Assembly (NCBI GenBank): GCA_903813345.2
Contig: CAIIXF020000004.1
Location: forward strand, 9,060,196-9,124,195
Source of the DNA: Owenia fusiformis
Taxonomy: Eukaryota > Annelida > Polychaeta > Sabellida > Oweniidae
Reading direction: 5' to 3'
Length of the DNA stretch: 64,000 bases
This document shows positions 45,954 to 51,900 of this stretch, piece by piece; position 1 is the stretch's first letter, and each line of letters opens with the position of its first letter. Position numbers and translations under genes: made by a program. The notes below the pieces were generated by a model. It saw nothing but the letters and a program-made list of their open reading frames with translations, made no database searches and was not told where the DNA came from.

Positions 45954-48900
45954 CTAGTAGCCTTTAGAGGCCTCCTTTGCTGCCAAGATGAGGGGGTGCA
46001 GACTGGCCAGGGGTTTTGCCAGGCGTAAGAAAGGATGCTGAAAAAAGCAAGGAGTAAAAATATCTTAATGTGGAATTTCAAATATATAATAACAAAATAT
46101 CTTGAATAGATTTACTTTTCAAATCTTTTATTTATACAATATAACATTTGTCAAATCATGTGCTTTGATTCCATGTTTACAGACCTCATGATTTCAAAGA
46201 GTTATCAATAGTTTTTTAATTTTTCTTATTTTAACACAGATCAGAAAAGCTACTGTGTCTTCTAAAATCCGAAGGACTAATGTAAGCAAAAATGCAATCA
46301 GAAGTACAGATATAAATATAGATGGCATGTGTGTATAGTGATACCCTGCCTTTTCATAAATATTGAACAATTTTCAAAGAAAGCGACGCCAAATATCAAA
46401 CAAGGACCCTGTTTAAGTTCCGCAGCGATTAGTAAAACAATACTTTCACTCACCCTGAGGAACTCTGAGGCTGAGGGTCTTTTATCGACATCAACTTCAA
46501 GACATCTATCCAAGAAATCTTGGAAGACAGGAGACAATTTATGTTTGTCTTTAATCTCAGGTTTGCCATTGGTTGCTATGAGATACAATGCCTGCAAAAC
46601 AAACATGATATTTTTAGTTTTAAATAACTTTTTACAGGGGCTCTTCCAACATCTTCAATGTTGGGCAGCATCTGTTCTGTGGATCCATGCATCTCTATGT
46701 GGTGTTCACCTTGACCTTTGGCAATGCTGTTGCCATGGATACAGCTATGGCCCCTCAGTCCCTGTCCCATTTGATTTTATAATTTAGAATTTACTAACTC
46801 AACTTCTGTCAATGACATGACCTTTAAACAAGAATTTTAGAAATTTGCCATAAATGGTACCTCTGAGATAATATAGTATATACATGGGCATACATACATA
46901 GTGTTTTATATCATAAAGCATATGATATACTCTTTCAGAATCAATAGGTTTTTAAGTCATTCTATAAGTTGTCATGGTTACAAGATTCCAAAAATACATT
47001 GGGTTTGTGATTGGACGTGATTTGGATGTGATATCACGTCCTTCGTTATCAATGTATGTGCTTTATGACGTCATATCATGTCCTTCGTAGCGAATGAGTT
47101 AAAATACTCGTATGTTGTCATATTCATCTCTCTGTACTCACCCTTAGAGGATTCTCATTGAGATATGGTGGTTCCCCTTCAATCATCTCAATAGCCATTA
47201 TTCCTAAACTCCATATGTCAACCTTAGGTCCATATGCTTTTCTGTAATAGAATATAAACTAATGTTATGTCCATATGCTTTTCTGTAATAGAATATAAAC
47301 TAATGTTATGTCCATATGCCTTTCTGTTATTGAATATAAACTAATGTTATGTCCATATGCTTTTCTGTAATAGAATATAAACTAATGTTATGTCCATATG
47401 CTTTTCTGTAATAGAACATAAACTAATGTTATGTCCATATGCTTTTCTGTAATAGAATATAAACAAATGTTATGTCCATATGCCTTTCTGTTATAGAACA
47501 TAAACTAATGTTATGTCCATATGCCTTTCTGTAATAGAATATAAACTAATGTTATGTCCATATGCCTTTCTGTAATAGAATATAAACTAATGTTATGTCC
47601 ATATGCCTTTCTGTAATAGAATATAAACTAATGTTATGTCCATATGCCTTTCTGTAATAGAATATAAACTAATGTTATGTCCATATGCCTTTCTGTTATT
47701 GAATATAAACTAATATTAGGTCTAAATGTCTTTTTGAAACATCATTTATGTAATGCCTTTCTGTAATAGAATATAAACTAATGTTATGTCCATATGCCTT
47801 TCTGTAATAGAATATAAACTAATGTTATGTCCATATGCCTTTCTGTAATAGAATATAAACTAATGTTATGTCCATATGCCTTTCTGTTATTGAATATGAA
47901 CTAATATTAGGTCTAAATGTCTTTTTGAAACATCATTTATGTAATGCCTTTCTGTAATAGAATATAAACTAATGTTATGTCCATATGCCTTTCTGTAATA
48001 GAATATAAACTAATGGTATGTCCATATGCTTTTCTGTAATAGAATATAAACTAATGTTATGTCCATATGCTTTTCTGTAATAGAACATAAACTAATGTTA
48101 TGTCCATATGCTTTTCTGTAATAGAATATAAACTAATGTTATGTCCATATGCCTTTCTGTAATAGAATATAAACTAATGTTATGTCCATATGCCTTTCTG
48201 TAATAGAATATAAACTAATGTTATGTCCATATGCCTTTCTGTTATAGAACATAAACTAATGTTAGGTCTAAATGTCTTTTTGAAACATCATTTATGTAAT
48301 GCCTTTCTGTAATAGAATATTAACTAATGTTATGTCCATATGCCTTTCTGTTATAGAACATAAACTAATGTTAGGTCTAAATGTCTTTTTGAAACATCAT
48401 TTACGTCATGCCTTTCTGTAATAGAATATTAACTAATGTTATGTCCATATGCCTTTCTGTTATAGAACATAAACTACTGTTAGGTCTAAATGTCTTTTTG
48501 AAACATCATTTACGTCATGCCTTTCTGTAATAGAATATAAACTAATGTTATGTCCATATGCCTTTCTGTAATAGAATATAAACTAATGTTATGTCCATAT
48601 GCCTTTCTGTTATAGAATTTAAACTAATGTTATGTCCATATGCCTTTCTGTAATAGAATATAAACTAATGTTATGTCCATATGCCTTTCTGTAATAGAAT
48701 ATAAACTAATGTTATGTCCATATGCCTTTCTGTAATAGAATATAAACTAATGTTATGTCCATATGCCTTTCTGTTATAGAACATAAACTAATGCTAGGTC
48801 TAAATGTCTTTTTGAAACATCATTTATGTAATGCCTTTCTGTAATAGAATATAAACTAATGTTATGTCCATATGCCTTTCTGTAATAGAATATAAACTAA

Positions 48901-51900
48901 TGTTAGGTCTAAATACTTCATATGCAATGTTGTACTTTTAGGACATTATGTCAACCTTAGCTCTATATACCTTTCTGTAACATGAGATCATTTAACGCTA
49001 GGTCAAAATACCTTTCCTTTATTAAATTTCATTTATTGCAAAGTCCTAAGTCAAGATCATTTCATTTGGTTTTATCTTCATGAGCATGTTTCCATCTTTG
49101 GCAATGATAGGTTCTTACCCCAATCCTACAAAGATATAGTAATCACAGATACAAGAATATTGCGATTCCGCGTCGCCACAGAAAAGACACAGAATTTAAG
49201 GCTTACCTTGTGACGACTTCAGGAGCCATCCAGTAAGGGGTACCAACCATGGTAGACCTCTTACTTTGTTCTGGGGATAGTTGAGCACAGAAGCCAAAAT
49301 CAGCTGAAAGTACAACATATTTAGTAAGTTAGTCAATATTTACAATGAGATATTATTAGATGTGTGACATATTAAAATGTCACCTCAAGGAAAAGAAAAA
49401 TATCACACAAGGCAAACCTGACATCAAACAGGACTTTCCATGTCAGTCAAATGGTCAGTTATAGAGAAACACAATTTGAGTACATGTATAGTTTAAGACT
49501 TACTTAGTTTTACGCCACCATCCATTCCTAGTAAAATATTGTCACTTTTAATATCGCGATGAATTACATTGTTCTCATGTAAGAACTCCAATGCTTGGAG
49601 AGTCTGAAAATATAACGGACAATGTAAGTGCAATGTAACATGTTTAATATTTTAAGAAAAAATTGCCAACTTCCAAAACAATATGATTTAATGTGCAAGG
49701 AAACAATGTCTAGTTCTTCCCTCTCCGTCACTATTCAGAACATCATCTCAATTAAAAATCGCAAGACTCTGTGATACAAACTATTGAAGTCTATTAAAGA
49801 TAATTATACAATAATATACATAGGAAATATCCTGAGTTATACAAGTGTCTTTGTTTATATTTGAATTATCCAAGTTTGTTTCACCTTGATAACTTCAGTC
49901 ATATATCTTCTACAAAAGGGATATTATCTCTAATTAATTATGAAATATATTTAGTCACAAAATTCACATTAATTCATTTCACATTGTGTCCAATATGTCT
50001 TACCTCTCTACACACTGAGGCTATTTGACCCTCATCCATACACGTTTCCGTGACAACATCAGTCAGGGAACCACCAGCCAAATACTCCATTACAACCTAT
50101 CAGAACACAGCAAATATTCAGTCCTTGAACCATATATAAATGCAATAAATCTTAAAACTGATCTCTCTCAATGTGTATTTTTCTGAATAGATATTCAAAT
50201 GTTTTTAGTGTAAAATTTTACATGGGGACATGAAATACCAGATTGCAATTTTCCCCAAACCTGTACATTCACAGTTTACTTGTATTTATGAAATAAATCT
50301 ATTGATTAATAAAAAACATAGAGTTTCATCTTCATGTGTAGATAAGGTATCTTTCAATTTTGGGGTACTTCCTCCTCTTAAGCACTACAAACTGCATAAA
50401 CGGAGTCATAAATTCTTACCCACAATTCCTCTCCAACAAGGTAGCTATTGAGATAATTCACAATATTTGGATTCTGATTTTCTCTCATGACGAGGATTTC
50501 GTTGATTATGAGTTCCTTCTTCGGTTGCTGAGACAAATTCATTTGTTTGATGGCTACTTCACGCCCAGTAGCGACCTCTATTGCTATATACACTGTACCA
50601 GATGCACTGGAAAAACACAGAGAAAATTATTAGTTTACACAGCTTCCTTGAAGACTCATATAGATGGCACTTCCTTAATCATTGCTAGTATGTTACTCTT
50701 ATCACTTGTTACATCGGGGAGCAAATATCATCTTGACTTTAAATTGGAATACTTAGCTAGTAGTTTTGGGTTGTAGGCTTGTGTAAGTACAAATAATATT
50801 GTGAAAATAAACACTAATCCTAAATAATCATCTCTATGCCAATGACCAGTCTAATAGAGAAGCTTAGCGCCACCTAAACAACTTCACACATCGTGTTTTG
50901 CTATTTCATTGGAAGATGGATCCCAAAACTCAATGTCAAAATTTGAGAAGAATGTTAGAGTAGTTTCCTTTCAACATCATCTTATGCTCTTATTTAACAT
51001 CATATGATCTCATTTCTTATAAATGGTCATTTGAAATAATCAGAACATATCACAAGGAAGGCTTTAACTCACCCCTGACCAATTTTTTCCATTTTTGTAT
51101 ATTTTTTATTGGGATCCCCAACTGAGACTATTGTCCGTAATTTTTCTAAAATTTCTTCATCTGTCATTTTCTTCTTTTTGGGCCTATCTGTTCTCGCCTG
51201 TAAACCTGGTTTGGCTTCATCAGGATCTACTGGTTTGGTATACTGAAATTGGAAATAAACATATAATGAATAGGTTTATTTCATAAATAAAATAGCATAC
51301 ATGCAGAGTGAATGGGGCAAATCGCCTTCCAGCATTTCATATTACCATATAAGAGTAATTTTATCTTACTGAATATGTTCTATTTCATTCTGAGTATGAC
51401 ATTATATTAATTATAAATACATGTTCAAGTACGAGATAAAGTCATGTGATAGTCCAAAAAGGGAGTCATAGCAAAACCTCCCCAGTTAACCAAGTTTTCT
51501 AAATAATTTGATAAACGAAATCAGCATTGTATGGGACTGATAAACGATTTTCTGAAAAATATCACACGGATCTCAATAATATCAGAATGTACCATGGCTG
51601 TTATTGTACTGTTAACACTACAGGGCATATAAAAACAAGGCATTAACATGACAAAATGTCACCACCTAAAGGTCAATTTGAAGCAAGTTGAAAACAGACC
51701 TTTTTTGACCTTTTTTGACCTTGAGAAGGTCATTGAAGGTCAAATGTCAAATCTAAAGTCAGATTTGAAGGTCAAATGTCAAATCTAAAGTCAAATCTAA
51801 AGTCAGATTTGAATTTCTGAGAACATGTAGATGATTTTGAAAAAAATTTAGTCAATGTGAAGCAAGTTGAAAAAAGACCTTTTTGACCTTGAGAAGGTCA

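Follow-up and report, generated by a model that had tools for sequence, protein, structure and literature searches.

Why should an intron of a conserved kinase gene end in dozens of copies of its own 3' splice site, and does the gene make any use of them? This question is raised by a group I PAK kinase gene encoded on the minus strand of the window analyzed here, a 64,000-nucleotide stretch of DNA (C4:9060196-9124195) in a 498-Mb animal genome. The earlier note on this locus had offered three answers, namely, a splicing timer, a decoy, and a neutral expansion tolerated by the cell.

The PAK gene and its repeated acceptor

The PAK exons, identified by tblastn using human PAK1 as the query, span positions 58479 down to 45963. 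The last four exons, from 49303 through the stop codon after 46040-45963, yield a single open kinase frame when joined, and the best PDB matches of the 66 residues encoded by exons 49303-49207 and 47241-47142 are chains of PAK1, PAK3, and PAK2. The intron that separates these two exons is 1965 bases long and contains the array (Table 1).

Table 1. Repeats at the PAK locus and exon-boundary duplications found elsewhere (positions in the window, or on a contig, C, where one is named)
Feature	Position	Strand	Remarks
PAK kinase-domain exon with repeated 3' splice site	47142..47241	-	True acceptor directly upstream (47242)
41-bp minisatellite	47228..48906	-	42 junction-like copies upstream of the true acceptor, 36/42 with AG
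Span with six copies of the 68-bp variant	47733..48838	-	Truncated unit plus dead acceptor (AA for AG)
Decayed, probably older array end	48947..49027	-	One diverged 41-mer, ACAG acceptor still intact (48974), exon homology over 28 bases; runs into a stop
Preceding PAK exon	49207..49303	-	Donor GTAAGC
74-bp x 3.1 array	53870..54098	-	Adjoins the acceptor of the PAK exon at 53866; TRF and by eye
Pseudo-exon	57709..57812	-	104-bp copy (87.5%) of the acceptor and about 85 bases of exon 58002-57847; downstream of that exon
Acceptor-boundary duplications	C11:35576883-35577718, C11:134945-135361, C3:18449057-18449526, C10:1069207-1069520, C4:31700575-31700906		Chaperonin and proteasome genes, 2-9 copies
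Donor-boundary duplications	C11:141560-142095, C1:58969750-58970062, C10:13376890-13377199, C4:31709209-31709460		

The repeat had been described as a unit of about 27 intron and 14 exon bases that adjoins the true exon and is present in some 40 copies, and this description was confirmed: the standard unit consists of 27 intron bases ending ATTCTATTACAG, followed by 14 exon bases. TRF reported a period of 41 across 47224-48279 (score 1021) and a period of 123, that is, three units, across 47224-48909 (score 2245). Junction-like sites were located using four exon-start motifs, so that a copy lacking these motifs would escape the count; 45 such sites were found, of which one is the true acceptor (47241) and the other 44 are copies upstream of it. 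The terminal dinucleotide of the upstream copies is AG in 37 cases, AA in six, and GG in one. Identity to the true site among the 37 AG copies extends over -20 to +3 in 22, over -27 to -1 in 20, and over -27 to +14 in four, and on the exon side, the difference between the true site and the best copies begins only past +14. The standard unit also includes a branch-point-like ATAAC motif that, read by eye, places its A 24 bases 5' of the exon and might act as the branch point. The repeated element is a whole 3' splice-site module. A special RNA structure of the array was considered and rejected (z = -1.22; 25 of 200 shuffles fold equally well).

Parts of the earlier description require amendment. 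The uniform 41-bp length applies to the standard unit but not to the six copies of the 68-bp variant, with junctions at 48811, 48497, 48388, 48279, 47924, and 47733. Likewise, the extent given previously (47228-48907) covers the main array, but a decayed and probably older part continues to about 49027. An ungapped alignment of 81 bases (unit, acceptor, and 28 exon bases) joins this decayed end to the exon-proximal copy with a score of 35, compared with 16 or less in 500 base shuffles; the array seen today was thus probably preceded by a duplication that was larger and of greater age.

Assemblies often give the wrong length for a tandem array. In the amphioxus globin paper, as excerpted, one comparable array is said by the authors to be apparently misassembled in the draft genome (PMC3087553). 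Inflation or collapse of the PAK array by the assembler is nevertheless extremely unlikely to explain it: the units carry diagnostic changes and shared blocks, the edge is decayed, and no second unit-bearing place was found in a DNA search that was not exhaustive for repeats, in which 26 of 27 matches lay within the PAK locus and the remaining one was the paralogue exon. The copy number itself could still be off.

Predicted consequences of acceptor misuse and probable history of the array

Because the extra copies sit in the intron, the coding sequence stays intact. Translation from the preceding exon via each AG copy meets a stop before the next exon in all 37 cases, and only one of the 38 acceptors, the true one, leaves the frame open through exon 47241-47142 into the next exon. 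The stops lie at least 202 bases upstream of the last junction examined, a distance that is off by one. Premature-stop transcripts of this kind are cleared by nonsense-mediated decay, so that misuse of a copy would yield transcripts of the type removed by this pathway. The earlier argument that the wrong copy shifts the frame holds in general, but the distance added by 12 of the 37 AG copies preserves the frame, and these, too, run into a stop.

Such an arrangement could be expected of a functional decoy or delay element, in which upstream acceptors would capture some of the transcripts, the stops would direct these to degradation, and the length of the array would set PAK output. The supply of 37 acceptor copies, 22 of them indistinguishable from the true site over -20 to +3, and the premature stop behind every one of them are compatible with this scheme, which we consider unlikely. 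One line of evidence against it comes from the PAK paralogue on contig C5 (C5:70800-75300), where the equivalent intron contains a different, 34-bp-like minisatellite that lies near both ends of the intron and, by eye, ends short of the splice sites and includes no junction; in a looser scan, the acceptor of this gene (74911) was flagged for 72% similarity to a spot 2 kb off, and it was left out of the count of duplications given below. Conservation of the array in the paralogue was rejected on the same observation. The same paralogue intron also has a 135/271-bp tandem repeat. A 135-bp tandem repeat with a similar consensus is present at positions 42089-42747 of the window as well as in the paralogue region, and it looks like a dispersed satellite.

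Exact repeated blocks inside the array reach 158 bp, with offsets that include 41, 532, 669, and 1078. The recurrence of exact multi-unit blocks at such offsets indicates that units seem to move several at a time and suggests block-wise exchange among the units of the array; the block at offset 669 includes the exon-like AAAAGC units of 48033-48115. Most units had been noted to differ from the exon at a lysine codon, and this is the case: of 42 units, 35 have G at base +4 (AAAGGC-like, with the codon AAG) and the other seven have A, and the PAK exon has AAA. The further proposal that the array keeps the older exon sequence obtained modest support, in that AAG is also found in the distal relic and in the C5 paralogue. 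This pattern suggests that the A of the PAK exon is the newer base, but an identity of just 79% to the paralogue exon limits the weight of the comparison.

The PAK gene contains two further repeats of this general kind. In the 74-bp units next to the exon at 53866, about seven exon bases remain in register and the acceptor AG is gone, as judged by eye. The pseudo-exon is a degenerate copy of the p21-binding-domain exon located in the next intron, with a stop present and the acceptor intact.

Two degenerate exon copies, the relic (48974) and the pseudo-exon (57812), would be in keeping with another role, in which the copies represent intermediate steps in the gain of an intron or exon and are turning into alternative exons. 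The amphioxus globin authors proposed this role for such arrays (PMC3087553). Yet both the relic and the pseudo-exon contain stops, none of the 37 upstream AG copies leaves an open frame, and the interval 47242-48906 (1665 bases, gene strand) includes 53 GT dinucleotides but no GTAAG, GTGAG, or AGGT. We regard this role as very unlikely for the PAK array.

Boundary duplications at other conserved exons

If the array had a function specific to PAK, unrelated exons would not be expected to share its architecture. Three samples of conserved exons, 94 matches altogether, were screened for tandem duplication at their edges: 51 matches to chaperonins and kinases (44 of 60 matches in one list and seven of 42 in another), 27 of 29 proteasome matches, and all 16 aldehyde dehydrogenase matches, from 22 loci sought. 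Apart from one locus tested separately (see below), the remaining matches fell beyond the retrieved DNA or were exons of the window itself. Copies more than 1 kb distant were excluded from the edge scan, and final verification was by eye. From the residues, we take the sampled exons to belong to CCT8, CCT2, TCP1, CCT3, a PSMB5-like gene, and others; the searches gave the Pfam family alone.

Tandem duplications of the exon boundary were verified for nine of the 94 matches, five at acceptors and four at donors (Table 1). The samples differ, with 5/51 among chaperonins and kinases, 4/27 among proteasome genes, and 0/16 among aldehyde dehydrogenases, the last of which makes the genome-wide rate uncertain. 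One further locus, C3:19348812-19349204, was tested separately from the 94 and gave no flag. Counting the true site, the acceptor duplications comprise nine copies of 83/89 bp, four of 96 bp, at least five of 93-94 bp, three of 104 bp, and two of 157 bp. AG is found at the homologous position in 17 of the 18 upstream copies of these five arrays, and the 18th has AG two bases downstream. The donor duplications, again with the true site included, comprise two pairs of copies (154 bp long in one pair and 127 bp in the other), an array of 16 copies that are mostly 28 bp long, and five decayed copies at intervals of 48 or 96 bp. In the 16-copy donor array (C11:141560-142095), 11 of the 15 extra copies have GT and ten have GTGAGT.

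The automatic scan had flagged 12 of 188 exon edges and three of 94 exon midpoints, and all three flagged midpoints sit in boundary-spanning copies. One duplication, at C4:31700784, was flagged at both edges and counted once; another, at C4:31709342, was flagged at the midpoint only and was read by eye as a donor duplication. Three flags were rejected: those at C1:44278319 and C11:135225 mark the ends of read-through matches and no exon edge, the latter within an array already counted, and that at C5:5764738 is an intronic 72.6% match 0.9 kb distant.

A local tandem repeat was also present at 374 of 3259 random points located 60-600 bases outside the exon matches (238/1733, 76/998, and 60/528). 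The flag rate of exon edges is below that of these points, so the edges show no excess of tandem repeats, a comparison that is only rough because the sampled points were clustered. The pattern fits a general process of neutral tandem duplication, which would be purged within exons and tolerated where splicing drops the extra copy.

A function specific to PAK is thus unsupported, because unrelated exons share the architecture, and it was rejected. The same observations weigh against the decoy or delay element, since housekeeping exons unrelated to PAK, and donors too, have comparable arrays, and exon edges show no enrichment; that donors and acceptors are both hit is not predicted by a function of 3' splice sites alone. 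Neither the timer nor the decoy of the earlier note gained any support, given the similar arrays at chaperonin and proteasome exons and the unenriched exon edges. Its third option, a neutral expansion, holds up.

Relation to mirages and implications

Minisatellite-like duplications of intron-exon boundaries, known as mirages, have been described in amphioxus Adh3, the globin genes BflGb6 and BflGb9, troponin C, and PGBD5, as excerpted from PMC3087553 and PMC3902484. Like the PAK array, these contain tandem copies of an intron end and an exon start, and in amphioxus also of an exon end and an intron start. Many splice signals, a unit within the range of 10-160 bp, and a homogenised cluster with a diverged edge are common to both. 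In the PAK array, the unit spans the boundary with 27 + 14 bases and, at 41 bp, falls within the size range of the published cases; the splice signal is kept by many but not all copies (AG in 37/44); the interior is homogenised, with exact blocks to 158 bp, to the exclusion of the diverged edge copies at 49015 and 48974. As expected of mirages, acceptor and donor boundaries of several genes are affected in this genome (five acceptors and four donors among 94 exon matches). The copy numbers differ, with 44 upstream copies in the PAK array versus six and three repeat units in two BflGb6 haplotypes. On sequence grounds, we file the PAK array as a new, long example of this known kind.

Amphioxus mirages reportedly leave regular splicing undisturbed, according to the excerpted text of PMC3087553, which also counts against a decoy. 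In the human CBS variant 844ins68, as summarized in PMC2630376, the intron 7/exon 8 junction is duplicated, and splicing strongly favours the more distal of the two sites and discards the upstream exon segment; the favoured site is called a donor in that summary but a 3' splice site in the title of the cited work of Romano et al. The duplicated intron/exon junction is shared with the PAK array, but the CBS variant is a polymorphism with a single 68-bp extra copy and no array. Human CBS also has a 31-bp VNTR that spans an exon-intron boundary and contains copies of the donor; it is, like the PAK array, a minisatellite with splice-site copies, but on the donor side and with fewer copies. A title in the reference list of PMC2630376 links this VNTR to reduced enzyme activity. 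The ABCA7 VNTR is likewise an intronic tandem repeat linked to splicing, but one with, by the title of the paper, an effect on splicing (PMC5954066).

On balance, the PAK array is likely to be a mirage-type minisatellite, neutral and tolerated by splicing. A tandem DNA duplication would have captured the final part of the intron together with the first bases of the exon, and slippage and unequal exchange may have enlarged and homogenised the array to about 44 extra copies. By analogy with human CBS 844ins68, the spliceosome would use the copy joined to the full exon, presumably via exon-side signals and exon definition; stray use of upstream copies would be cleared by nonsense-mediated decay, and the array would have no function of its own. 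The retention of AG in 37/44 copies here and in 17/18 copies of the five other acceptor arrays fits homogenisation and gives no separate indication that splicing passes the copies over.

The hosts of mirages in the published papers are cephalochordates, and a literature search with incomplete coverage returned no report of mirages outside this group. The genome analyzed here does not resemble that of Branchiostoma, which has 19-20 chromosomes and a GC content of about 41%, compared with 35.4% in the window. Searches for COX1 and for GFP-family sequences gave no match, the latter in a run where the controls gave none either. Contigs C1-C12 hold 143 of the 147 family or protein matches in our genome searches, and the ten of them with displayed sizes are 32-62 Mb long. 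Should the host lie outside the cephalochordates, mirages in such abundance would be an extension worth reporting.

We tentatively raise the possibility, which we do not consider probable, that mirages are no cephalochordate oddity and that, in some other group of animals (possibly oweniid annelids), about one in ten conserved exons has its splice site repeated in tandem. Given as many as 37 acceptors upstream, some of which equal the true one over 41 bases, the choice would have to rest almost wholly on sequence more than 14 bases into the exon, and any leak into upstream copies would make the length of the array a heritable dial on PAK output. The four copies equal to the true acceptor over -27 to +14 set up a natural experiment in which 3' splice sites of identical local sequence compete. 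Should the last site alone be used, what decides between them cannot be the branch point, tract, and AG nearby. The PAK array therefore offers good natural material for tests of how splice sites are chosen. More broadly, the boundary duplications, which are apparently abundant, suggest that mutation copies splice sites time and again, in a process that could feed the gain of introns and exons.
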